Assembly: GCA_003644275.1 (NCBI GenBank) | Contig: QNBY01000013.1 | Location: 1-12,844, forward strand | Direction of reading: 5' to 3' | From: Planctomycetota bacterium | GTDB taxonomy: Bacteria; Planctomycetota; B143-G9 | DNA: 12,844 nucleotides | Shown here: positions 1-12,844 of the stretch, piece by piece | Layout: every line of letters begins with the position of its first letter | How positions within the stretch are numbered: the stretch's first letter is position 1 | The notes under the pieces: generated by a model | Told to the model about the DNA's origin: nothing | Database searches by the model: none | Seen by the model: the letters and a program-made list of their open reading frames with translations, nothing else | Translations under genes and position numbers: made by a program

Positions 1-1280
1 GCCAGTTCGCGGGTGGTCAGGCCGTAGTCGATGTCCTTGAAGCCGGAGTCACACATTTCCGGGCGGTTGCATTCGTACTTCTTGGCCGAGCAGGGCATCA
101 GCGCGACGGTGACGATGTCCTTGGGATCGATGCCCGCCTTCTGGGCGTAGTAGGTCTTGATGACGGCACCGAACATCTGCTGGGGACTTTTGGCGGAACT
201 GACGTTGGGGATGTACTGCGGATAGAAATGTTCGAGATATTTCACCCAGCCCGGCGAGCAACTGGTGAACTGGGGCAGGGCGACGTCGGGGTCTTTTTCG
301 ACCAGGGCCTTGTACAACCGCAACAGCAGTTCCGTGCCTTCCTCGATGATGGTCAGGTCGGCGGAGAAGTTGGTATCGAAGACCTTGTCGAACCCGCAGC
401 GGCGCAGGGCGGTGTTCATCTCGAAGGTCAGCGGCTGGCCCGGCTCCAGGCCGAAACACTCGCCGATGCCGGCGCGGGGACTGGGGGCGGTCTGGATGAC
501 CACGTGCTTGGTCGGGTCGTCGATGGCGGCCCAGACCTCGTCGGTCGGGTCGTTGGCGCGCAGGGCGCCGGTGGGGCAGCGGTTGATGCACTGGCCGCAG
601 TTGATGCAGACGACATCCGAGAGCGGCTTGTTCATGAAGGTGGCTATCTCGGTCTGATCGCCGCGGTTCACGGCCTCGAGGACGCCGACTTCCTGCATGT
701 CGATACAGGTCCTGACGCAGCGGCGGCAGAGGACGCACTTGTTGTTGTCGCGGACCACGGCGTAGCTGGAGCGGTCTATCTCGAAGCGGGGCTCCTCGGG
801 ATGGCCGAAGCGGAAGTAGTCCACGCCGTATTCCTTGGCGAGGGTCTGGAGCTCGCAGTTGTTGTTGCGGAAGCAGGAGTAGCACTCGCCGTAGTGCTCG
901 GAGAGGAGCAGGTCTATGATGTGGCGCCTGGCCTTGCGCACCTTCTGGGAGTAGGTGCGGACCACGATGGGGCCGGTGATGGGGAAGGCGCAGGCGGCCT
1001 GGAGGGTCCTCTGGCCCTCGACCTCGACCACGCAGAGGCGGCAGACGCCCGCGATGCAGAGATCCTCATGGTAGCAGAGGGTGGGAATCTTGACGCCTAT
1101 CTTCTTCGCTGCCTCGAGTATGGTGGTGCCGAGGGGGACCTTGGTCTGTATTCCGTCTATGGTGACGGTAACCTGCGCCCCGATCGCGTTCGGATCGTCG
1201 CCGCCGTCCACCCGGTGCGGCTTCTGGCTTTTCGGCGCCCGGTTAGTCGGAGACGTGATGGGTTCTTTCTTTTCGCTCAT
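1..1280 (-). CDS. hydA: [FeFe] hydrogenase catalytic subunit HydA/HndD-like, 3' end cut by the window
   Basis: Catalytic subunit of a cytoplasmic NAD(H)-linked [FeFe] hydrogenase (2H+ + 2e- <-> H2). The 426 visible residues show, in order: a polar N-terminal extension (1-35); a plant-type [2Fe-2S] domain (C69, C80, C83, C97); a His-Cys cluster H129-x3-C133-x2-C136-x5-C142; two [4Fe-4S] sites (C182/185/188/192 and C225/228/231/235); and the start of the H-cluster domain. That domain has L1 as TSCSPGW (339-345) and L2 as MPCSAKKYE (395-403). The last signature (L3) lies off the window; HndD-type proteins usually run to about 580 residues. The ATG follows a TAAGGAGG site that overlaps the hydB stop, 10 nt away. 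Odd points: the second L1 cysteine is Ser342, and codon use changes sharply near residues 220-240. The domain assignment is very secure; the electron partner is inferred from the operon. Confidence 0.96.
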   Translation of the reverse strand, partial: MSEKKEPITSPTNRAPKSQKPHRVDGGDDPNAIGAQVTVTIDGIQTKVPLGTTILEAAKKIGVKIPTLCYHEDLCIAGVCRLCVVEVEGQRTLQAACAFPITGPIVVRTYSQKVRKARRHIIDLLLSEHYGECYSCFRNNNCELQTLAKEYGVDYFRFGHPEEPRFEIDRSSYAVVRDNNKCVLCRRCVRTCIDMQEVGVLEAVNRGDQTEIATFMNKPLSDVVCINCGQCINRCPTGALRANDPTDEVWAAIDDPTKHVVIQTAPSPRAGIGECFGLEPGQPLTFEMNTALRRCGFDKVFDTNFSADLTIIEEGTELLLRLYKALVEKDPDVALPQFTSCSPGWVKYLEHFYPQYIPNVSSAKSPQQMFGAVIKTYYAQKAGIDPKDIVTVALMPCSAKKYECNRPEMCDSGFKDIDYGLTTREL

Positions 1281-1290
1281 TCCTTCCTCC

Positions 1291-2478
1291 TTACCGGCAA
1301 ACGTGGACGCGACCCAGGATTTCGTCCTGGAAGTGCTCGATTATGGACAGGAACGCGTTGGGACTGCTCTGGCCGAGGCCGCACTTGGAAGCGACCTGCA
1401 TGGTGCGGCAGAGCTCGATTATCTCGTTGAGGTACTCGATGGAGCAGCGGCCTTCCTCGAGCATCTCGATGCATTCGAGTATCTTGACGTTCCCGACGCG
1501 ACAGGGGGTGCACTGGCCGCAGGATTCCTCGACGAAGAACTCCATGAAGTTCTTGGCGACGGCGAGCATGTCGCGGCCGGGGCCGAAGACGATGATGGAG
1601 CCGCCGGTGGGGACGTCCTCGTAGGCGATGGTGCGGGAGAAGTCCTTGCGGGGGACGCAGTGGCCGCTTGCGCCGCCTATCTGGACGGCCTTGGCGTTCT
1701 CGCCCCCGACGTGTTCGAGGAGCTCGGCGACGGTGATGCCCATGGGGAGTTCGTAGACGCCGGGGCGCTCGCAATCGCCGCTGACGCTGAAGAGTTTGGA
1801 GCCGGTGGAGCGGTCGGTCCCGACGGCCTTGAACCAGTCGGCGCCCTTCGCGAGGATGTGGGGGGTTACTGCGAAGGTCTCGACGTTGTTGACGATGCTG
1901 GGGCAACCGAGGTAGCCCTGGGTGACGGGGTAGGGAGGCCGGTTGCGGGGCTCGCCGCGGTGTCCTTCGAGGGACTCTATGAGGGCGGTTTCCTCGCCGC
2001 AGACGTAGGCGCCCGCGCCCATGAAGATGGTGATGTCGAAGTCGAAGTCGTCCTTGCCGAGGATTCCCTTGCCGAGCAGGCCGTTCTCGCGCCTGGCGGC
2101 CAGGACGCCCTCGAGGTGGCTCCGGAGGTAGGCGTACTCACCGCGGAGGTAGAGGATGCCTTCCTTCGCGCCGACGGCGTAACCGGCGATGGTCATTCCC
2201 TCGAAGACGAGGTCGGCGTACTCGGCGAGGAGGACGCGGTCCTTGAAGGTGCCGGGTTCGCCCTCGTCGGCGTTGCAGATGACGAACTTCCTGTCGCCCC
2301 TGGCGCTGGCGGCGAGGTTCCACTTGACGCCCGTGGGGAAGCCGGCGCCGCCGCGGCCCTTCAGGCCGGAGTTCCTCACCTCGGCTATAGTACCGGGACG
2401 CCCCTTGTCGAGGGCGGTCTTGAGCCCGGCAGAGGGCTCAATGGCGGAGAAGATGATGGGGCCTTGCCTGTTTGCCAT
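1291..2478 (-). CDS. hydB: NuoF-like NADH-binding subunit HydB of the hydrogenase, minimal form
   Basis: FMN- and NADH-binding flavoprotein subunit of a trimeric hydrogenase, 395 residues, NuoF/HndC family. Visible motifs: GRGGAGFPTG (41-50, NADH site), CNADEGEPGTFKDR (68-81, FMN site), GAGAYVCGEETALIESLEG (154-172), and a [4Fe-4S] site C320-x2-C323-x2-C326 with C366. The protein stops soon after that cluster. It therefore lacks both the N-terminal thioredoxin-like [2Fe-2S] domain and the C-terminal 2x[4Fe-4S] ferredoxin-like domain of long HydB proteins such as that of Thermotoga maritima. I chose ATG at 2478 over an upstream in-frame codon at 2529: it has an AAAGGAGG site 7 nt upstream and overlaps the hydC stop as TAATG, whereas the 2529 start would run 52 nt into hydC. 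It should pass electrons between NADH and HydA. Confidence 0.95.
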   Translation of the reverse strand: MANRQGPIIFSAIEPSAGLKTALDKGRPGTIAEVRNSGLKGRGGAGFPTGVKWNLAASARGDRKFVICNADEGEPGTFKDRVLLAEYADLVFEGMTIAGYAVGAKEGILYLRGEYAYLRSHLEGVLAARRENGLLGKGILGKDDFDFDITIFMGAGAYVCGEETALIESLEGHRGEPRNRPPYPVTQGYLGCPSIVNNVETFAVTPHILAKGADWFKAVGTDRSTGSKLFSVSGDCERPGVYELPMGITVAELLEHVGGENAKAVQIGGASGHCVPRKDFSRTIAYEDVPTGGSIIVFGPGRDMLAVAKNFMEFFVEESCGQCTPCRVGNVKILECIEMLEEGRCSIEYLNEIIELCRTMQVASKCGLGQSSPNAFLSIIEHFQDEILGRVHVCR

Positions 2479-2993
2479 TACCGAGCCTCCTTTTCCTGAA
2501 GCGTGTAAGGGCCGAACTGCTTGCGGCACTCGGAGATTATCTCGTGGACCTTACGGGGGGTGAGCTGGGTGAAGACGACGTCGTTGACCATCATGGCCGG
2601 TCCCTGGTCGCACATGCCGAGGCAGTTGGTCCATTCGAGGGTGAAGCGGCCGTCGGGGGTGGTCTCTCCGAAGCCTATGCCGAGCTCGTTCTCGAGCTGG
2701 CGGGCGATGGCGTCCTTTCCGGCCATGTCGCAACTGATGGTGCGGCAGAGGCGGATGATGAAGTTGCCCTTGGGCTCGGCGGAGAGGAAAGCGTAGAAGG
2801 TGACCACGGAGTACACCTCGACGGGGTGTATGCCGAGGCCGTCGGCTATTTCCTGCATGGCGACGTCGGAGACGTGGCGGTACTTCTCCTGGACGGCTTC
2901 GAGAATGGGGAGGAGATAAGCGCGGTCGTGGCCGTACTTTTCACAGAGCTCGGCGATGTCCTTCCGCAGCAGGTTGCGTTCGGATTCCAGCAT
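2478..2993 (-). CDS. hydC: NuoE-like [2Fe-2S] subunit HydC of the hydrogenase
   Basis: A 171-residue thioredoxin-like [2Fe-2S] protein of the NuoE/HndA family, the small electron-transfer subunit that pairs with the NuoF-like HydB. The four cluster ligands are in the family pattern: C83-x4-C88 (LCRTISC) and C124-x3-C128 (NCLGMCDQGP). The N-terminal helical part (about 1-75) with YLLPILEAVQEKY and GIHPVEVYSVVTFY is typical. Length is normal for the family. The ATG at 2993 has an AAGGAGGG site inside the end of the upstream receiver gene, with only 2 nt between that stop and this start. Its own stop overlaps the hydB start by one base (TAATG). This points to tight translational coupling and equal subunit supply. 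Confidence 0.95.
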   Translation of the reverse strand: MLESERNLLRKDIAELCEKYGHDRAYLLPILEAVQEKYRHVSDVAMQEIADGLGIHPVEVYSVVTFYAFLSAEPKGNFIIRLCRTISCDMAGKDAIARQLENELGIGFGETTPDGRFTLEWTNCLGMCDQGPAMMVNDVVFTQLTPRKVHEIISECRKQFGPYTLQEKEAR

Positions 2994-2995
2994 GC

Positions 2996-3373
2996 CTATC
3001 CCTCCTTCTCGAGAAGCTTCTTGACCTTGGCGAGGAGCACGGCGGGCTCGAGCGGCTTTTCCGCGAAGTCGTCCACGGGGACCATCTCGTCGTCCTTGCC
3101 GAACTCCATACCGAACGCCTTGCCGACGGAAGTGAGCATGAGGATGGGGGTCCTGATGCCGTCGGCCCTCGCTTCCTGGGCGAGGACGAATCCGTCGTCG
3201 GGCTGCTCCATCATGACGTCGAGGATGATGAGATCGGGCTTCTCTTCCCTGATGGCCCTCTTACCATCCGCGGCGCTCGACGCGGAGACCACCTCGTAAC
3301 CCTCTTTTTCGAGGACGATAGAGGTGAATTCCACCACGTCCGGATCATCGTCGATGATCAGAATCCTTGGCAT
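2996..3373 (-). CDS. Stand-alone response-regulator receiver protein in the hydrogenase operon
   Basis: A 125-residue CheY-like receiver with no output domain. The acidic pocket D8-D9-D10, phospho-acceptor D52 (IILDVMM), switch residue T81 (MLTS) and K106 (EKP) are all present, so it should be phosphorylatable. The loop between T81 and K106 is longer than usual and rich in charge (KAFGMEFGKDDEMVPVDDFAEKP begins at K85). From memory, a similar loop occurs in receivers encoded beside NADH-linked hydrogenase or NuoEF-type genes; I could not check this. Its ATG overlaps the regulator-methyltransferase stop by one base (TAATG), behind an AAAAAGGAGG site. No histidine kinase lies in the window. Its role is unknown: a phospho-signal on the hydrogenase or on the adjacent regulator is possible, and it cannot bind DNA by itself. 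Confidence 0.93.
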   Translation of the reverse strand: MPRILIIDDDPDVVEFTSIVLEKEGYEVVSASSAADGKRAIREEKPDLIILDVMMEQPDDGFVLAQEARADGIRTPILMLTSVGKAFGMEFGKDDEMVPVDDFAEKPLEPAVLLAKVKKLLEKEG

Positions 3374-4431
3374 TACTCCTCCTTTTTTCGGGTGTCGTTG
3401 CCGTAAATCTCACGCGCAGCGCCCGACCCGCCGGGAGCGTGCGCGGTGAAAGCGTAAACGGGAGCCCTCTCGCAATCTTCGAGGATGAGGCCGGCGGAAC
3501 AGAGGAGCCTCTTGAGGCGGCCGCCTGCGGGGAGCTCGGCCTTGAACGGGAGGGGGGGAGAGGGCCAATCGAACACGTAGAGCCTTCCGCCGGGCCGCAG
3601 GGCGCGCCTGGCGGAGCGGAGGAAGGCCGACTTGTCCTCGAGTATTCCGAAGGTGTCGTGACAGAGGACGAAATCCACGCTTGCGGGGAGGACGGAGAAG
3701 GAGGCGAGGTCGTCGCGGCGCAGCTCGGCGCGGGCTCCCACGCGGGAGCGGGTCAGCTCGACGGCCTTCGAGGAGAAGTCCACCGCGATGACGCGGCCGC
3801 CGGGCGAGACGAGCTCGAGGAGGAGGGCGGTCGAGGCACCGGTGCCGCAACCGGCGTCCAGCGCCACGGCTCCGGAGAGGGGGAAGGCCTGGAGGCGGGA
3901 ACGCAAGAGGGCCATTTCCTCCGGGGCGGGCTCGATGTGGGCGTCTTCCCTCTCGAAGTATTCCCTCAGGCCGGAGCGGCGCGGCCTTTCCGGAGCGCTT
4001 CCGAGCCGGGCGCGCGGGAGGAGGACGGCCTCGGCGTGCTCGACGCCGTCCACCGCGCGGAAGGCGTCCACCATGCGGCTGACGGTGGGCCGCTCGCCGT
4101 AGAGGCCCATGACGAGGACGGAGCTTCCGAAGCGAAGGGGAATCTCGAGGCCGCTGAGGACGGCGGAGGCGAAGCGGTTCCTGAGGGCGGCGAGCTTTTC
4201 CTCCACGCCCGGGACGGCGCGGGAGAAGAAGACGCTGAGGACGGCGGCGACCTCGCCCTCGAGGTCGTCCCAGCGGTGTTCGGCCATGTGGCCGCGGATG
4301 ATCTCGCGTATGGCCTCGGAGCGGTTTCGGAAGCCGGAACGCTTCACGTAGCCGTCGAGTTCGGCCACGAGAGCGGGCTCCATGGAGACTCCGAACCTGT
4401 AAACGTTTGTGTCTCTGCCGCCTTTGGACAT
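3373..4431 (-). CDS. NikR-like ribbon-helix-helix regulator fused to a class I SAM methyltransferase
   Basis: First gene of the hydrogenase operon, 352 residues. Residues 10-50 form a ribbon-helix-helix DNA-binding domain of NikR type (YRFGVSM, then the helix GFRNRSEAIREIIRGHM). Residues 55-139 align without gaps to the NikR C-terminal ACT-like domain. Residues 185-330 are a class I methyltransferase: motif I LDAGCGTG (191-198), acidic ribose-binding D218 in VIAVDFS, DL at 241-242, VDFVLCHDTF (252-261) and LRPGGRLYVFDW (278-289). The E. coli NikR nickel ligands H76, H87, H89 and C95 map to N85, E96, P98 and S104, and residues 55-139 hold no Cys and one His, so NikR-type nickel sensing is unlikely. 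ATG 4431 is preferred to GTG 4440, which lies upstream of the predicted transcript start; the mRNA would be nearly leaderless. The ligand and methyl acceptor are unknown. Codon use is even across the fusion. Confidence 0.9.
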   Translation of the reverse strand: MSKGGRDTNVYRFGVSMEPALVAELDGYVKRSGFRNRSEAIREIIRGHMAEHRWDDLEGEVAAVLSVFFSRAVPGVEEKLAALRNRFASAVLSGLEIPLRFGSSVLVMGLYGERPTVSRMVDAFRAVDGVEHAEAVLLPRARLGSAPERPRRSGLREYFEREDAHIEPAPEEMALLRSRLQAFPLSGAVALDAGCGTGASTALLLELVSPGGRVIAVDFSSKAVELTRSRVGARAELRRDDLASFSVLPASVDFVLCHDTFGILEDKSAFLRSARRALRPGGRLYVFDWPSPPLPFKAELPAGGRLKRLLCSAGLILEDCERAPVYAFTAHAPGGSGAAREIYGNDTRKKEE

Positions 4432-4433
4432 AC

Positions 4434-4460
4434 GTAGCACGATTATAGGATTCGTGCTAC
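4434..4460. promoter_or_regulatory. Perfect 9-9-9 inverted repeat, candidate operator of the NikR-like fusion
   Basis: GTAGCACGA (4434-4442), 9 nt spacer, TCGTGCTAC (4452-4460). The 27 bp element covers the whole -10 box and 13 of the 15 spacer bases of the operon promoter, ideal for repression. The outer hexamers GTAGCA and TGCTAC lie about 21 bp apart centre to centre. That is close to the two-turn spacing of the E. coli NikR operator (GTATGA-N16-TCATAC), as expected for two RHH dimers bound on one DNA face. The link to the adjacent regulator is inferred from family knowledge and position. Confidence 0.75.
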
Positions 4461-4468
4461 ACTGTCAA
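4442..4468 (-). promoter_or_regulatory. Promoter of the regulator-hydrogenase operon
   Basis: On the minus strand a perfect TTGACA (4468-4463) and a perfect TATAAT (4447-4442) are separated by 15 bp, which is shorter than the 17 bp optimum. A T-tract followed by CC sits directly upstream of the -35. Transcription should start about 4434-4436, only a few bases before the ATG at 4431, so the first gene would be read from a leaderless or near-leaderless mRNA with no Shine-Dalgarno site. The short spacer may make the promoter weak or regulator-dependent. Confidence 0.75.
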
Positions 4469-4531: not shown

Positions 4532-4554
4532 AGTTTGGGAACGTAAACTATAAT
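4532..4554 (+). promoter_or_regulatory. Feo operon -10 box with overlapping inverted repeat
   Basis: A TATAAT at 4549-4554 should start transcription near 4561-4562, on or next to the ATG at 4562, giving a leaderless mRNA. No good -35 is visible at the expected place. An inverted repeat AGTTT-N8-AAACT (4532-4549) touches the -10 and is a candidate operator for the DtxR-family protein encoded immediately downstream. It does not match the classic DtxR box closely, so this is a positional guess. Confidence 0.5.
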
Positions 4555-4561
4555 GGGGGAG

Positions 4562-4993
4562 ATGGACTGCTCATCGAAGAAGACCACATCGTCCCAAGAG
4601 GACTATTTGGAAGCCGTGTTCCTGCTCGAGATGAGGCACGGCTCCGCCCGGGTGTCCGACATCGCGGAGATGGTGGGGGTGGGGAAGTCCGCCGCCTCGC
4701 TGGCGGTGAAGGCGCTGCAGGAACGTGGGTTCGTGCTGCACGATTCCTACGGGAGGGTGCGCCTCACGCCGCAGGGGAGGGAGATAGGGGAGAAAGTGAG
4801 CCGCCGCCACTTCATAATTCGGGACTTCCTCCACGAGGTGCTCGGCGTTCCGATGGAGGAGGCCGAATCCGCCGCCTGCGGGATAGAGCACGTGGTATCC
4901 GCGCTGGTGATACAACGCTTTTCCGAGATGCTCGCGGCTTTCCGCAGCGGCGTACCCTTTCCCCGCAAGGAGATCAAGGAGGACTCGAAATGA
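4562..4993 (+). CDS. DtxR/MntR-family metal-dependent transcriptional regulator of the Feo operon
   Basis: A 143-residue metalloregulator with an N-terminal winged helix (about 10-75: EDYLEAVFLLE, RVSDIAEMVGVGKSAASLAVKALQERG, then the wing GRVRLTPQG) and a metal-binding dimerisation helix pair (76-125). It lacks the C-terminal SH3-like domain, so it has the short MntR-like form. Candidate metal ligands are D14, E17, H83, C106, E109 and H110. D14/E17 resemble MntR D8/E11, while C106 takes the place of MntR E99, as in the iron sensor DtxR (C102). Because feoAB follow directly, iron is the most likely signal. I prefer ATG 4562 to ATG 4553, because 4553 lies inside the TATAAT box and would not be in the transcript. 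Its stop overlaps the feoA start (ATGA). Confidence 0.9.
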   Translation: MDCSSKKTTSSQEDYLEAVFLLEMRHGSARVSDIAEMVGVGKSAASLAVKALQERGFVLHDSYGRVRLTPQGREIGEKVSRRHFIIRDFLHEVLGVPMEEAESAACGIEHVVSALVIQRFSEMLAAFRSGVPFPRKEIKEDSK

Positions 4994-5253
4994 CCGGCTC
5001 CAGGGTCGCACCGCACGAGTTTTCGCTTTCGGAGGCCGCAGCGGGTTCGTCCGTGGTGCTCGTCAGGTTCTCCGGCGGCCGCGCGCTTGTCGCGCGCCTC
5101 GCCGCCCTGGGCGTCGTCCCCGGCACTTCCTTCACCGTGCTCAAGAACTCCTTCTTCGGCCCGGTGATAATCGCCCTGGAGGGCTCGCGCCTCATGGTCG
5201 GGAGAGGGGAGGCGGCGAAGATGATCGTCCGCGCCGCACTGCCCGCCACATAG
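4990..5253 (+). CDS. feoA: FeoA-type SH3-like ferrous iron transport accessory protein
   Basis: An 87-residue protein of the FeoA family, a small SH3-like beta-barrel that assists the FeoB permease. The family pattern is visible: an N-terminal LSEAAAGSSVVLVRFSGG strand pair, then ARLAALGVVPGTSFTVLKNSFFGPVIIALEGSRLMVGRGEAAKMIV, where the Gly-Val-x-Pro-Gly turn and the closing L-x-x-G-x-x-x-A stretch are hallmarks. The ATG overlaps the stop of the preceding regulator (ATGA), and feoB begins 10 nt after its stop. It should act at the cytoplasmic side of the membrane. Length and layout are normal for the family. Confidence 0.93.
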   Translation: MTGSRVAPHEFSLSEAAAGSSVVLVRFSGGRALVARLAALGVVPGTSFTVLKNSFFGPVIIALEGSRLMVGRGEAAKMIVRAALPAT

Positions 5254-5263
5254 GAAGGGAAGC

Positions 5264-7354
5264 GTGAAGCCCCGTTTCACGGTCTGCCTCGCGGGGAACC
5301 CGAACAGCGGGAAGACCTCCCTTTTCAATCACATAACCGGCCTGCGCCATCACACCGGCAACTATCCCGGCGTCACGGTGGAGATAAAGGAAGGCGTCCT
5401 CGAACTGGAGGGGACGCCCGTCCGTTTCGTGGACCTGCCGGGGACGTACAACCTGTCGTGCTTCTCGGCGGAGGAGACGGTGGCCCGCGATTTCCTGCTG
5501 GATCACCGCCCGGACCTGGTCGTGGACGTGGTGGACGCCACCAACCTGGAACGCAACATGTACCTGGCGGTGCAGCTCATGGAGATGGGGATGCCGCTGG
5601 TCATCGCCCTCAACATGTCGGACGTGGCCGAACGCCAGGGGATAAGGATAGACCACGAGCTGCTCTCGGCGAAGCTGGGGGTGCCCGTGGTGCCCACGGT
5701 GGGGCACCGCGGGAGGGGGATACCGGAGTTGCTGAAGGTGGTGAGGGGCTCGCTCCACTCGCCGCCCTCCCCCGCCCTGCGCATAAATTACGGGCGGGAG
5801 ATAGAGAAGGAGATAGAGGGCATCGAGAAGGCCGTGAGGGAGATAGGGATAGAGGGAGGTGATGACGGCCTTCCGCCCAGGTGGATAGCGATAAAGCTGC
5901 TCGAAGGGGACGAGGTGCTGGCGGAGCGGCTGTCGCGCATCCACAAGCGGATACCGAAGCTGCTGGGGAAGGCCGCGGAGGCGCGCAAGCGGATAGAGGG
6001 CCTCTTCAGGGACACCGTGGAGGTGGTGCTCGCGGAGAGGCGCTACGGGTTCATAAGCGGAGCGTGCCATCCCGCCGTGGTGTGCACGCCGGAGGCCAGG
6101 CACCGCTTCTCGGACAAGATAGACGTGGTGCTCACGGGGAGGCTCACGGGGATACCCATCTTCCTCATGCTGATGTACCTGGTGTTCACGCTCACCTTCA
6201 AGCTGGGGGAGATACCGATGGGGTGGCTGGAGAGCGCGTTCGCCGGTCTGTCCTCGTGGATAAACGACGTGTGGGAGCCCGGCCGTATGGACATGCTGCG
6301 CTCGCTGATCACCGACGGCGTGATAAGCGGCGTGGGCGGGGTGCTCGTGTTCCTGCCCAACATATTCATATTGTTCCTGGCGATATCGCTTCTGGAGGAC
6401 ACGGGCTACATGGCGCGCGCGGCCTTCCTGATGGACCGGTTCATGCGGTTCATGGGGTTGCAGGGCAAGAGCTTCATCCCCATGCTGATAGGGTTCGGGT
6501 GCACGGTTCCGGCGGTGATGGCGACGAGGACGCTGGAGTCCCGGCGGGACCGCCTGCTCACCATACTCGTTCTTCCGCTGGTGAGCTGCGGGGCGCGGCT
6601 GCCGGTTTACACGCTGGTGATTCCCGCGTTTTTCCCAGCGGCCTGGCAGGGGCCGATGCTGTGGACGATATACCTCGTGGGGATACTGCTCGCCGTGCTG
6701 ATAGCGAGGGTGCTCCGCTCCACGCTGTTCAAGGGGGAGGACTCGCCGTTCGTGATGGAGCTTCCGCCCTACCGCATACCGACGCTGCGCACCCTGTTCA
6801 TCCACGCCTGGGACCGCGCGAAGGAATACCTGTACAAGGCGGGGACCGTCATCCTCGCCATATCCGTGCTGTTGTGGATACTGGGCAACTTCCCGGCGCC
6901 GCCCGAGGAGGCCGTTGCGGGACTGCCGCCCGAACGGGCGGCCGCGGTGCGGACCGAGAACGCGGCGCTGGGGTGGATAGGAAGGGCGCTGGAGCCTTTC
7001 TCGAAGCCGATAGGGTTCGACTGGAAGATAAACACCGCCCTACTGGGGGCCGCGGCGGCCAAAGAGGTGTTCGTGGCCCAGATGGGGATAATCACCTCGC
7101 TCGAGAACGCGCCGGACGAGCCCGAAAAGCCCCTGAGGGACCGGCTGAAGGACGAGTACACGCCGCTTACGGGGCTGTCGCTTCTCATCTTCATACTGAT
7201 CGCCTCGCCGTGCATAGCGACGTTCGCGGTGGTGAGGAAGGAGACGGGCTCGTGGCTGCTGCCCGCGGCCCAGTGGACGGGATTGACGGTGCTGGCGTGG
7301 GTTTTGAGCTTCCTGGTCGTCAGGTGTGGTATCCTGTTCGGGATGACGACATGA
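5264..7354 (+). CDS. feoB: Ferrous iron transporter FeoB
   Basis: Inner-membrane Fe(II) permease with an N-terminal GTPase domain, 696 residues. GTPase motifs: G1 GNPNSGKT (11-18), switch region HTGNYPGVTVE (30-40), G3 DLPG (57-60), G4 NMSD (117-120), and a late TVGHRGRG in the G5 area. A helical GDI-like segment spans about 165-265, followed by many hydrophobic membrane segments. The two conserved gate regions are present, GFGCTVPAVMATRTL (C413) and SCGARLPVY (C442), along with SPCIATFAVV near the C-terminus. The start is GTG 5264, with a GGAAGGGA site just upstream that overlaps the feoA stop. The stop overlaps the following small gene (ATGA). It looks intact and would supply iron for the Fe-S-rich hydrogenase encoded divergently. 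Confidence 0.97.
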   Translation: MKPRFTVCLAGNPNSGKTSLFNHITGLRHHTGNYPGVTVEIKEGVLELEGTPVRFVDLPGTYNLSCFSAEETVARDFLLDHRPDLVVDVVDATNLERNMYLAVQLMEMGMPLVIALNMSDVAERQGIRIDHELLSAKLGVPVVPTVGHRGRGIPELLKVVRGSLHSPPSPALRINYGREIEKEIEGIEKAVREIGIEGGDDGLPPRWIAIKLLEGDEVLAERLSRIHKRIPKLLGKAAEARKRIEGLFRDTVEVVLAERRYGFISGACHPAVVCTPEARHRFSDKIDVVLTGRLTGIPIFLMLMYLVFTLTFKLGEIPMGWLESAFAGLSSWINDVWEPGRMDMLRSLITDGVISGVGGVLVFLPNIFILFLAISLLEDTGYMARAAFLMDRFMRFMGLQGKSFIPMLIGFGCTVPAVMATRTLESRRDRLLTILVLPLVSCGARLPVYTLVIPAFFPAAWQGPMLWTIYLVGILLAVLIARVLRSTLFKGEDSPFVMELPPYRIPTLRTLFIHAWDRAKEYLYKAGTVILAISVLLWILGNFPAPPEEAVAGLPPERAAAVRTENAALGWIGRALEPFSKPIGFDWKINTALLGAAAAKEVFVAQMGIITSLENAPDEPEKPLRDRLKDEYTPLTGLSLLIFILIASPCIATFAVVRKETGSWLLPAAQWTGLTVLAWVLSFLVVRCGILFGMTT

Positions 7355-9788: not shown

Positions 9789-10696
9789 ATCCCCACCCTC
9801 CCGGCGCGGAAGGCCTCTGCGACGGCGACGGGGACGAGCGCCTCAGCCGCGAGCAGCTCCGCCTTCATCTCCACCACCTTTGCGCGGTTTTCCTGTTCCT
9901 CGGCCACCGCCATGGCGCGGCGTTCCTCGGCGCGGGCCTGTGCGACGCGCATGTCGGCCTGGGCCTGGTCGTACTGGAGCTGAGCGCCGACGTTGACGCC
10001 GATGTCCACGTCGGAGATGTCGATGGAGAGTATCTCGTAGGCGGTTCCGACGTCGAGGCCCTTGTCGAGGACCACCTGGGATATCTTGGCGGGGCTCTTG
10101 AGAATTTCCTCGTGGGACTCGGCGGATCCGATGGTGGTGACGATGCCCTGTCCGACGCGGGCGATGATGGTTTCCTCGGTGGCGCCGCCGATGAGCCTTT
10201 CGATGTTCGTGCGGACGGTGACGCGGGCGCTGGCGAGGAGTTGGATGCCGTCCTTTGCGACCGCCGCCACCTTGCGGCCGCCGCCGGGGCACTCGATGAC
10301 CTTGGGGAGCACGGAGGTCTGGACGGCGTCCTTGACGTCGCGGCCGGCGAGGTCGATGGAGCAGGCGCGGCCGAAATCGAGTGATATGCCCGCGCGGCTG
10401 GCGCTGATGTAGGCCTCGATGACGTTCATCACGTTTCCACCGGCGAGGTAGTGGGATTCGAGCTCTTCTATGGAGACCTTCAGTCCCGCCTGGACGGCCT
10501 TGATGCGGGCGTTCACCACCTGGTTGACGTCCACGCGGCGGAGCTTCATTCCCACGAGCTCGAAGAAGCTGACGGGGGCGTTGTTGAAGCGGGCGCGGAG
10601 CCAGATGCCGAAGAAATAGGCCACCACCAGGATGACCACGAGGAAGACGGTCCCCGCAAGTATCCCCAGGATCAACAAAATGGTAGCCGTTTTCAT
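9785..10696 (-). CDS. floA: FloA-type flotillin-like membrane scaffold protein, short C-terminus
   Basis: A 303-residue SPFH-type protein of the FloA (YqfA, formerly UPF0365) family, which forms membrane microdomain assemblies. A hydrophobic N-terminal hairpin (about 4-33) is followed by the family core: [96 protein letters not shown], and the coiled-coil region [40 protein letters not shown]. The protein ends at [10 protein letters not shown], so it lacks about 25-30 residues that follow this point in Bacillus FloA. The ATG has an AGGAGG site 5 nt upstream and a near-consensus promoter. The usual NfeD partner gene is not adjacent. The stop overlaps the isomerase start, so the two are probably translated together. 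Confidence 0.93.
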
Positions 10697-10719
10697 CGAA
10701 ACCTCCTCGCTTTGTGGGA

Positions 10720-10748
10720 ATTATAGCCCTGCGGACGGCGCGCGTCAA
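10720..10748 (-). promoter_or_regulatory. Promoter of the floA operon
   Basis: On the minus strand TTGACG (10748-10743), 17 bp spacer, TATAAT (10725-10720). A T5-CC tract precedes the -35. Transcription should start near 10713, leaving a leader of about 17 nt that contains the AGGAGG site at 10707-10702. Confidence 0.85.
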
Positions 10749-10750
10749 GG

Positions 10751-10791
10751 AAAAAGGCCCGTCCCGAGGGAAGGGGACGCGCCGTTTTTTT
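10751..10791. terminator. Bidirectional terminator-like hairpin between divergent promoters
   Basis: A run of five A (10751-10755), a stem GGC-C-CGTCCC (10756-10765) pairing with GGGACG-C-GCC (10774-10783) with one mismatch, an 8 nt loop, then seven T (10785-10791). Seen from either strand it looks like an intrinsic terminator. It fills the gap between the -35 boxes of the two divergent promoters, where neither operon has an upstream gene to terminate. It may instead serve as an insulator, an AT-rich upstream element for both promoters, or a protein site. Confidence 0.5.
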
Positions 10792-10792
10792 C

Positions 10793-10821
10793 TTGACAGG
10801 TTTTTCGCCCGTTCCTATAAT
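10793..10821 (+). promoter_or_regulatory. Promoter of the PQQ-propeller gene
   Basis: A perfect TTGACA (10793-10798), a 17 bp spacer and a perfect TATAAT (10816-10821): a full sigma-70-type consensus, directly preceded by T7-C. Transcription should start near 10828, giving a leader of about 45 nt with an AGGAGGG site at 10862-10868. This predicts strong, possibly constitutive expression. Confidence 0.9.
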
Positions 10822-10872
10822 AGCCTCGCGTATCGACTCGTGATGGCAACACCACATTCCCAGGAGGGTTCG

Positions 10873-12093
10873 ATGAGAAGGCTCGCCGTCGTTGTTCCTC
10901 TCTTGCTACTCGCCGTGTTGATCGCCGCAGGCGCCTCGTATGCGGACGGCAAGAGACCGTACCTGGAGCCTCCCAAGAAGGCCACCGGCACCGACAAATC
11001 CGCCAATCAGGACGAGCAGACCTCGCTGGAGAAGCTCATCTACGACAACGTGCCGGCGGACTTCCAGCTCGAGCTGAAGTGGCCCTTCTACAGCAGGAAG
11101 CTCGGCAAGATCGTCAGCATGTGGTATCAGCCCACCGCCAAGTTCTACATCGACGCCAACACCACCGCCGAGATAGCCGGGAACATATACGTCCAGACCG
11201 ACAAGAACACCTTCTGTTCCCTCTCGCTCGAAGGCGCGCTGCAGTGGGCCACCAACCTGCGCTTCCGTCTGACCGCCCCGCCGAAGGCGACGGCCTTCGG
11301 GCTCTACATCACCAACCTCAGCACCATACTGGCCCTCGACAGGCGCAGCGGGCAGACGAAGTGGATGAAGACCTACGACCTCACCCTCGCGACGCCCATC
11401 CACGCCACGCCCACCATGCTCTACGTCGGGACCTGGAACAAGCTTCTCGTGGGGATAGACAGGCTCACGGGCGAGGTTGCCTGGACCTACACCCTGGACG
11501 GCGACATAGTGGCGGAGCCCAACGATCCGTTCGCTCCCAAGCCCGCCGACTACGTCCTCGCGCCCTGCACCGACGGCTACCTTTACGCCGTCAGCTCCGC
11601 CGGGAAGCTTCTGTGGAAGTACAAGAGCTACGGCCGCCTTCTCGCCCAGCCGGTGATAACCCGGATAGGGGAGGACCCCCACGTGCTGTTCGGCTCGCAG
11701 GACACCAACCTCTACTGCGTGAACGCCGTTTCCTCCCAGAAGCTGTGGGAGTTCCGTTCCGGAGCGCCCATCGAGACGTCGCCCGTCGTGGTGCGCAACA
11801 AGGTGTTCGTGCGCAACATAAGCGGCGAGTTCTTCTGCCTGGACCTCAAGACGGGCGCGAAGCTGTGGTCCATGAAGGACGCGCGCTACGTCATCGGCGT
11901 CACCTCCGCGGGAGACATCTACCTGCTGTTGGGCAAGAACACCATCGCCGCGGTGAACCCGGACAACGGCAACGTGCACTGGAAGAGGAAGCTCTCGAAG
12001 TTCACCTACTTCATGCCCAACTGCTGGGATTCCTCGGTGTACGCCGTCACGGCGGAGGGATTGCTGCTCGCCTTCAAGGAGCCCGTCAAGTAA
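10873..12093 (+). CDS. Exported PQQ-type beta-propeller protein (BamB-like fold)
   Basis: A 406-residue protein with a signal peptide (1-25, ending near ASYA-DG), a polar linker to about 55, and a beta-propeller of PQQ/BamB type. The repeat signature (strand, turn, then G-x-x-x-W) occurs seven times with tryptophans at W125, W164, W204, W248, W292, W332 and W370, plus a degenerate final strand set (387-402). No lipobox cysteine follows the signal peptide, unlike E. coli BamB, so it is likely soluble and outside the cytoplasm. Nothing shows that it binds PQQ or is an enzyme; a scaffold or assembly role is equally likely. Strong promoter, good AGGAGGG site 4 nt from ATG 10873, and its own terminator suggest a monocistronic, well-expressed gene. 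Confidence 0.88.
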   Translation: MRRLAVVVPLLLLAVLIAAGASYADGKRPYLEPPKKATGTDKSANQDEQTSLEKLIYDNVPADFQLELKWPFYSRKLGKIVSMWYQPTAKFYIDANTTAEIAGNIYVQTDKNTFCSLSLEGALQWATNLRFRLTAPPKATAFGLYITNLSTILALDRRSGQTKWMKTYDLTLATPIHATPTMLYVGTWNKLLVGIDRLTGEVAWTYTLDGDIVAEPNDPFAPKPADYVLAPCTDGYLYAVSSAGKLLWKYKSYGRLLAQPVITRIGEDPHVLFGSQDTNLYCVNAVSSQKLWEFRSGAPIETSPVVVRNKVFVRNISGEFFCLDLKTGAKLWSMKDARYVIGVTSAGDIYLLLGKNTIAAVNPDNGNVHWKRKLSKFTYFMPNCWDSSVYAVTAEGLLLAFKEPVK

Positions 12094-12118: not shown

Positions 12119-12149
12119 AGAAGGGAGGCGCGAGCCTCCCTTCTTTTTT
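12119..12149 (+). terminator. Rho-independent terminator of the propeller gene
   Basis: A perfect 11 bp stem (12119-12129 with 12134-12144) closed by a GCGA tetraloop of GNRA type and followed by a T-run (12144-12149), 25 nt after the propeller stop. On the minus strand the same hairpin is followed only by a short T4 interrupted run, so it may weakly terminate the inositol-phosphate synthase transcript as well. Confidence 0.92.
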
Positions 12150-12169: not shown

Positions 12170-12844
12170 TCAGGAGTTGCGGTAGAAGTCCACCAGCGCG
12201 TCGAATTGGGCGTGGAAATCGTGCTCGTCCACGCCGATGGGATTCTTGAAGAAGGGGGCGAGTTGCTTCTGCAGCCCGCGCCCTCCCCTGGCGGCCTCGA
12301 AGGCGACGAAACGCACCAGGTCGAGCACGAGCGGCGCGGCGAGCATGGAGTCGCAACCCTGCCAGAGGAAGGACATGCTCATGCGGGTGCCGAGGAAGCC
12401 CTCGAAATGGATGTAGTCCCAGGCCACCTTCCAGTCGTCCAGCGAGGGGACGTAGTCTATGCGGGTGCGTGTGTGCATGTCCGGATCGGTGATGATGGAG
12501 CGCAGCACCCTGTCCTTGTTCGCGCGTTTGGCCGCGTTGCTGCCGGGATCGTCCAGAATCAGGCCGTCCCTGTTGCCCAGCATGTTGTAGCCCTCCCACG
12601 AGAGCACGCGGAAGTTGCGCATGACGAACATGGGAGCGAGGACGGTTTTCAGGAGGGTTTCGCCCGTCTTGCCGTCCTTGCCCACGTGGACGATTCCCGC
12701 TTCCTCGGCGGCCTGGGCGAGGTCGGGCCTGTCGGTGCCGGGCGAGGGGGTGAAGTTGACGAAGGAGCATCCTTCCTCCACGGCGGCGAGGGCGTAGAGG
12801 ACGGAGGGGGAAAGGCCCTCGCGGTCGTTTTTCTCTATGGCCCC
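12170..12844 (-). CDS. ino1: Myo-inositol-1-phosphate synthase, C-terminal part; 5' end off the window
   Basis: The open frame runs to the window edge and shows 224 C-terminal residues of an inositol-3-phosphate synthase (EC 5.5.1.4), which converts glucose 6-phosphate to 1L-myo-inositol 1-phosphate with NAD+. Recognisable segments are AIEKNDREGLSPSVLYALA at the visible N-terminal end, EGCSFVNFTPSPG, the hallmark GKDGKTGETLLKTVLAPMF with conserved lysines, SWEGYNMLGNRDGLIL, and DYVPSLDDWKVAWDYIHFEGFLG. The NAD-binding N-terminal part and start codon are beyond 12844. In bacteria such enzymes supply inositol for phospho-inositol lipids, solutes or thiols; which of these applies here is not visible. 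It converges with the propeller gene. Confidence 0.94.
   Translation of the reverse strand, partial: GAIEKNDREGLSPSVLYALAAVEEGCSFVNFTPSPGTDRPDLAQAAEEAGIVHVGKDGKTGETLLKTVLAPMFVMRNFRVLSWEGYNMLGNRDGLILDDPGSNAAKRANKDRVLRSIITDPDMHTRTRIDYVPSLDDWKVAWDYIHFEGFLGTRMSMSFLWQGCDSMLAAPLVLDLVRFVAFEAARGGRGLQKQLAPFFKNPIGVDEHDFHAQFDALVDFYRNS

Follow-up and report, generated by a model that had tools for sequence, protein, structure and literature searches.

Genes at the locus

The window analysed here is a 12,844 nt stretch of contig QNBY01000013.1 from a Planctomycetota bacterium (assembly GCA_003644275.1). At its start lies a [FeFe] hydrogenase operon headed by a gene that joins, in a single 352-residue frame, a ribbon-helix-helix (RHH) DNA-binding head and an ACT domain of the type found in the regulator NikR to a class I S-adenosylmethionine (SAM) methyltransferase (Table 1). 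The fusion gene is followed by a receiver gene, hydC, hydB and hydA; TAATG junctions link the fusion to the receiver gene and hydC to hydB, and an AGGAGG-like sequence precedes each of the four genes downstream of the fusion. The NuoE-like, NuoF-like and H-cluster subunits that characterise HydABC are all encoded in this one operon. The best NCBIfam match of HydA is to 'NADH-dependent [FeFe] hydrogenase, group A6', at 551.9 bits against a cut-off of 765; it falls short because the gene is cut at the window edge, leaving the last H-cluster motif outside. An earlier note, made from the sequence alone, had placed the fusion gene at the head of a [FeFe] hydrogenase operon, and the TAATG link to the receiver gene, with HydC, HydB and HydA following, bears this out.

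Table 1. Positions, within the window, of the fusion gene, its domains, the rest of the operon and the adjoining features.
Feature	Position	Strand	Basis or remarks
RHH-NikR_C(ACT)-methyltransferase fusion gene, stop included	3373..4431	-	352 aa; frame, Pfam, homologues, model
RHH DNA-binding head, residues 9-50	4282..4407	-	YRFGVS invariant in 5/5 fused members
NikR-type ACT domain, residues 59-140	4012..4257	-	nickel-ligand positions are N85, E96, P98, S104
Linker, residues 141-170, poorly conserved	3922..4011	-	model and conservation
Class I SAM methyltransferase domain, residues 171-335	3427..3921	-	motif DAGCGTG, D218, D241
Candidate NikR-type operator, GTAGCAC-N13-GTGCTAC	4434..4460	.	perfect palindrome, 9-bp arms, 9-bp centre
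TTGACA, -35-like hexamer	4463..4468	-	sequence reading
TATAAT, -10-like hexamer within palindrome	4442..4447	-	spacer of 15 to -35-like hexamer
Stand-alone response-regulator receiver protein	2996..3373	-	overlaps fusion gene by TAATG
HydC, NuoE-like [2Fe-2S] subunit	2478..2993	-	domain/family matches
HydB, NuoF-like FMN/FeS subunit	1291..2478	-	start set at TAATG junction with hydC
HydA, [FeFe] hydrogenase catalytic subunit, group A6-like	1..1280	-	cut by window end
Divergent DtxR/MntR-family regulator	4553..4993	+	domain/family matches
feoA and feoB, ferrous iron uptake	4990..7354	+	Pfam

The fusion frame extends from an ATG at 4431 to a stop codon at 3375-3373, with zero internal stops. A mechanical list of open reading frames includes an alternative GTG start at 4440, three codons further upstream and within the palindrome of Table 1; translation may begin at either codon. 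Pfam identifies RHH_1 at residues 12-46 (25.3 bits, against a curated cut-off of 20.5), NikR_C at residues 62-136 (25.8 against 22), and both Methyltransf_25 and Methyltransf_11 inside residues 191-286 (64 bits each, above the curated cut-offs). An AlphaFold2 model of the monomer, a prediction that the earlier note had recommended, has a mean pLDDT of 86.7, with values below 50 confined to the N-terminus, residues 147-150 of the linker and the tail; the NikR half aligns gap-free with 129 residues of the solved NikR structure 2bj1. The open reading frame, the domain matches and the model hence agree on the three-part architecture originally read from the sequence. Codon choice is likewise shared by the two sides of the junction, as had been noticed for leucine: CTC accounts for 12 of the 13 leucine codons in residues 1-140 and 20 of the 25 in residues 171-352, and the G+C content of third codon positions is 0.89 and 0.85 in the same two segments.

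A small family of fused proteins

A search of 5.8 billion proteins with the full-length sequence (7992 candidates scored) found four more proteins with an identical domain order, P0002-P0005, which are 334-366 aa long and approximately 40% identical to the window protein (P0001); two are named as proteins of Planctomycetota metagenome-assembled genomes. The same five were recovered by a profile search (7995 candidates scored) amongst eight matches at E <= 1e-12, the remaining three being methyltransferases. When residues 1-150 of P0004 were used as a query for long NikR proteins, ten of 642 candidates matched; P0004 and P0002 were found, and the other eight had the His, His, His, Cys (HHHC) ligands and no methyltransferase domain in Pfam. 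As this single-member search missed P0001, P0003 and P0005, five should be considered a lower bound for the size of the family.

No full-length relative was present among the matches listed from 98 other genomes, from 391 other genomes of the phylum (a set overlapping the 98, in which, for most genomes, scoring was limited to the five best candidates) or from 75 genomes of one class. A second phylum search, started from a different centre, covered mostly the same genomes and added nothing. Six loci from GTDB contigs matched the NikR half only. The window genome is the sole genome of its class in the searched set and is 77% complete, which applies to all the genome-wide absences given here. A possible split version in genome G137, where a methyltransferase gene lies 4 kb from nikR, is disfavoured by the intervening frames and by the HHHC ligands of that NikR.

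In phylogenies of the separate halves, the five fused proteins form one clade both in the NikR tree (55 rows; support 100/99) and in the methyltransferase tree (41 rows; support 99/95), with P0002, P0005 and P0004 grouping together in each; in the NikR-half tree the bootstrap is unsettled and P0001 is a long row with unusual composition. The earlier suggestion of an established fusion is upheld by the four additional proteins that the proposed architecture search brought to light and by the monophyly of each half, and an assembly artefact was set aside on these grounds. Conservation is highest in the RHH head (66% mean pairwise identity, 19 of 42 columns invariant), followed by the methyltransferase core (57%, 42 of 119 columns) and then the ACT domain (39%, 14 of 82 columns). 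With only five members, as diverged as they are, constrained residues are already visible.

Both RHH_1 and NikR_C exceed the Pfam gathering scores and the folds match those of solved NikRs; scores against the NCBIfam equivalogs for nickel-responsive NikR are all below cut-off (69.5 against 105, 48.7 against 83 and 39.4 against 175.45 bits). Comparison of the sequences confirms a fusion family that is real, rare and conserved, a departure within the NikR group.

Loss of the nickel ligands

The nickel ligands of E. coli NikR are His76, His87, His89 and Cys95 (PMC7055735). The gap-free alignment puts at these positions the same four residues of the window protein as the earlier note had reported, and its ACT domain is, as was also claimed, free of cysteine, which occurs only at residues 195, 257, 311 and 320. 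Across the five fused proteins the ligand positions read NEPS (the window protein), GSPG, QVPY, SDPC and GSPG. The assertion that all four ligands have been lost is thus correct for four of the proteins, the window protein among them, but not for P0004, which retains the cysteine; none of the five has a histidine at any ligand position, and position 98 is an invariant proline.

Among unfused NikR sequences, 57 of 58 rows are HHHC, equivalent to 50 of 51 distinct genes once seven second copies of the same gene are removed. The exception, an unfused RHH-ACT protein on a very long branch (L007:1501-1830), also lacks all four ligands (GRRD), apparently through a separate loss in another genome. 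P0052 (485 aa) is a ligand-complete NikR preceded by a PF06791 domain, presumably of the phage tape-measure type, and may be an assembly chimera. No second NikR_C protein was matched in the window genome. Given that the head and the methyltransferase core of the fused proteins are the parts best kept, whilst the ligands are lost, their sequences suggest that DNA and SAM binding were retained and the nickel site released.

The earlier note had argued that nickel sensing makes little sense at a [FeFe] hydrogenase locus. This was too strong, as the accessible portion of one report predicts a NikR site before the [Fe] hydrogenase operon hydAB2 of D. desulfuricans, with nickel switching isozymes (PMC545781), and the window genome has a [NiFe] hydrogenase of its own. 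The D. desulfuricans case is alike in having a NikR-type site before a [FeFe] hydrogenase operon and unlike in that an ordinary nickel-responsive NikR is proposed, a fusion not being mentioned in that portion of the text. The [NiFe] large subunit, on contig C51 (L100:2063-4996), contains RICGVC and DPCHAC motifs; its best model is VhuA (433.9 bits, against a cut-off of 800), and FlpD and small-subunit genes adjoin it. On contig C113 of the same genome (L071:1-5532) there is another group-A6-like HydA, truncated where the contig begins. Behind it come an open frame of 747 aa that combines a hydrogenase-like domain with a histidine kinase, and then receiver and receiver-kinase proteins; judged from these domains, the cluster is a possible hydrogen-sensing system.

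A candidate operator before the fusion gene

A perfect palindrome, GTAGCACGATTATAGGATTCGTGCTAC, occupies positions 4434-4460, two bases upstream of the fusion ATG and 92 bases from the start of the divergent DtxR-family frame. It was missed in the earlier note and is new here. When up to three mismatches are allowed, there is one copy in the window and one in the genome; the genes around the fusion are hyd and feo genes. With its two half-sites the palindrome has the layout of delta-proteobacterial NikR sites, which are given as GTGTTAC-N13/14-GTAACAC, 27-28 bp (PMC545781), and it is a candidate operator of the NikR type. No AGGAGG-like sequence is visible before the fusion gene, which, together with the position of the TATAAT hexamer, suggests that the transcript may be near-leaderless.

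Palindromes of the form GTnnnAC-N13/14 were surveyed in 547,024 bases of loci, a set enriched for nikR neighbourhoods by design and including duplicates. Perfect examples were found in seven places, representing five distinct sites including that in the window. Two lie directly before unfused nikR genes (L004 and L009), one is after nikR and before genes including cbiM (L016), and one precedes a TonB-receptor gene around 2 kb from nikR (L033). In Caldithrix abyssi, NikR-like sites are reported next to nikR, to TonB-receptor genes and to the cbi/nik transporters (PMC5317091). Thirteen palindromes have one mismatch, of which six are before nikR or cbiM (L039, L040, L057, L058, L059 and L065:7777, of which L065:7777 repeats the gene of L039). 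That in L057, GTGGCAC-N13-GTGCTAC, is upstream of cbiM, with an ordinary nikR two genes away, and is identical to the window site at 13 of 14 half-site bases. The other seven are elsewhere (L012, L043, L060, L061, L063, L065:14265 and L091), some inside open frames; the left side of the site at L063:7759 is close to that of the window, yet this candidate was rejected as it is located in a coding frame.

HydABC clusters in other genomes

At a threshold of E <= 1e-110, 14 of 245 other genomes have a relative of HydB. None of the ten HydB neighbourhoods taken from other genomes had a match to the NikR half or the fusion at E <= 1e-3, one of them (L093) beginning at hydB with its upstream side missing. 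HydA aligned through its H-cluster part in four (L088, L089, L096 and L097) and only through its N-terminal, HoxU-like part in the other six. The closest relative of the operon is L088 (5781-9418; receiver 61%, HydC 64%, HydB 67%, HydA 81%), which shares with L089 the order receiver-hydC-hydB-hydA and lacks, as L089 does, a fusion gene. In L097 the receiver gene is placed after hydC, and a Rex redox repressor over the NCBIfam cut-off (10522-11208) is encoded upstream of the hyd genes on the same strand. No GTnnnAC-N13/14 palindrome with one mismatch or fewer occurs in any of L088, L089, L096 and L097. As four HydABC clusters have neither fusion nor palindrome, the receiver is an ordinary companion of HydABC and the fusion an addition, which the palindrome accompanies; a requirement of HydABC operons for the fusion gene is refuted by this comparison of gene content.

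A proposed regulator and its relation to known systems

With moderate confidence, we propose that the fusion protein derives from NikR and locally represses the operon to which it belongs (fusion-receiver-hydC-hydB-hydA), acting independently of nickel and using its methyltransferase domain as a module for SAM, S-adenosylhomocysteine (SAH) or a methyl acceptor. The DNA target and the loss of nickel are read from sequence, whilst repression and the identity of the ligand are what we infer. By analogy with NikR, the protein would form a tetramer whose RHH pairs bind the candidate palindrome, and in doing so would block RNA polymerase. Nickel would no longer govern this binding; instead, the methyltransferase domain would hold SAM, SAH or a methyl-accepting small molecule, altering the tetramer's geometry. 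Maturation of the H-cluster involves the radical-SAM enzymes HydE and HydG, hence a possible reason for such a signal: the supply of SAM would indicate whether further hydrogenase could be matured, assuming that HydE and HydG are in the genome. The protein may descend from a NikR through which nickel decided between [NiFe] and [FeFe] hydrogenases, such an isozyme switch being a plausible ancestor.

A more far-reaching version is tentative: that a metalloregulator was rewired into a SAM/SAH-sensing repressor by losing its metal site and gaining a methyltransferase as ligand module, with the DNA head and operator layout kept, and that hydrogenase synthesis thereby became tied to the SAM supply for HydE and HydG in place of a nickel-dependent [NiFe]/[FeFe] switch. 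If true, a well-studied metal sensor would have swapped its signal yet kept its type of DNA target, a [FeFe] hydrogenase operon would have a dedicated regulator with a testable ligand, and a NikR-type ACT domain without metal ligands, with a fold like that of TM1266, would be found in a DNA-binding protein at a hydrogenase operon.

Several points weigh against the proposed self-repressor. Shuffling the 121-bp intergenic stretch 3000 times gave a perfect inverted repeat with arms of at least nine bases in 42 cases, which makes the palindrome by itself only moderately improbable; the half-site, though identical in layout, agrees with the delta-proteobacterial consensus at just 4/7 bases. The spacer of 15 between the hexamers is under the usual 17, and a promoter scan listed none because it accepts spacers of 16-18 only. 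The operator and operon were examined in one genome, and nothing observed tells a SAM sensor from an active enzyme.

The NikRs of E. coli, P. horikoshii and H. pylori share with the fusion the RHH head and ACT domain, the ACT fold superposing on 1q5y at 1.2 A over 83 residues, and the operator layout, in which 13/14 bp separate two half-sites of 7 bp. Unlike them, the fusion lacks the His/Cys nickel site, has a C-terminal methyltransferase, and is found at hydrogenase rather than nickel-transport genes. The ACT fold is also close to that of TM1266 (PDB 2nzc; 1.3 A over 79 residues), from which it differs in that the 80-residue 2nzc chain has neither RHH head nor methyltransferase and is 15% identical in sequence; TM1266 was reached by fold search alone, the ACT segment matching it neither in PDB sequences nor in NCBIfam. 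The family of TM1266 is named 'iron-only hydrogenase system regulator'. By its locus tag, a gene with that annotation adjoins hydG in Thermotoga neapolitana (PMC7039931). This gene is probably the orthologue of TM1266.

MetJ, an RHH repressor linked to SAM, lacks both an ACT domain and a Rossmann methyltransferase domain; it binds SAM through the RHH dimer itself, whereas in the fusion the SAM-binding part would be a distinct domain of enzyme type. Rv2258c (PDB 5f8c/5f8e) matches the methyltransferase part of the structure only, no NikR-like part being seen. The accessible text on SahR mentions no methyltransferase domain in that regulator (PMC4239095). Searches of open-licence PMC papers gave none that, by title, deals with a NikR-methyltransferase fusion, and nothing on RHH-methyltransferase proteins, NikR or RHH proteins in Geobacter, methyltransferase-fold effectors or Rv2258c.

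Alternative explanations

The methyltransferase half has the Rossmann core, GxGxG motif and acidic residue after strand 2 by which class I SAM methyltransferases are recognised; motif I, DAGCG(T/S)G, and the acidic D218 and D241 are conserved in all five fused members, as is an N/D-T-F motif following strand 4. It could therefore be catalytically active, on a small molecule or on a protein; the NikR half would then only tether it or match its own supply to demand, and SAM would serve as substrate rather than signal. The nearest named families (DVU_1556 family methyltransferase, arsenite methyltransferases, CpaM and UbiE, among the 25 of 50 families listed) are indeed enzymes, all under cut-off. 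We nevertheless regard this reading as rather doubtful: no curated substrate family was reached among those listed, residues 290-335, after strand 5, have a mean pairwise identity of 31% and give little sign of one dedicated substrate pocket, and the gene heads a hydrogenase operon, none of its same-strand neighbours being recognised as biosynthetic.

It is unlikely that the palindrome serves another regulator, whether the DtxR/MntR-family protein encoded divergently or, by way of a CIRCE-like element, HrcA, with the fusion acting elsewhere or not at all. The divergent gene is present, and the palindrome arms share TAGCAC with the CIRCE consensus, TTAGCACTC-N9-GAGTGCTAA, matching 6/9 bases per arm in the same 9-9-9 layout (PMC545781). 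However, the genome, 77% complete, has no HrcA and no CIRCE at three mismatches or fewer, for which reason CIRCE was rejected; the palindrome is far closer to the fusion ATG than to the DtxR-family frame; and all four other perfect palindromes of this form in the surveyed loci adjoin nikR, cbiM or TonB-receptor genes.

Somewhat less probable again is that the fusion still senses iron or nickel through other ligands, such as His132, His165 or the cysteines of the methyltransferase half. An iron signal would fit the divergent DtxR-feoAB iron-uptake genes, and both the [NiFe] hydrogenase in the genome and the predicted NikR control of a [Fe] hydrogenase (PMC545781) would suit a nickel signal. The residues themselves argue otherwise: in addition to the loss of histidine from every ligand position and the invariant proline at 98, His132 and His165 are variable, and C195, which lies in the SAM motif, is the only invariant cysteine.

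That a defunct NikR has run into a neighbouring methyltransferase gene, or that the contig is misassembled, would suit the rarity of the family (at least five proteins, with full-length members in none of the other genomes searched) but is highly improbable in view of the four further proteins of like architecture at around 40% identity, with both cores strongly conserved and both halves monophyletic.

Other features of the window

The DtxR/MntR-like regulator, feoA and feoB (4553-7354) are divergent from the fusion gene and share the intergenic stretch with it; a link between the iron supplied by feoAB and the iron-sulphur-rich hydrogenase is plausible. Further along, the frame at 12170-12781 on the minus strand has a weak match to an inositol-3-phosphate synthase model (33.4 bits, against a cut-off of 638). 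Between this and the convergent frame at 10714-12093, positions 12119-12144 form an inverted repeat, also perfect, whose 11-bp arms enclose a loop of 4 bp; it is the one perfect inverted repeat in the window with longer arms than the candidate operator and is perhaps a terminator.
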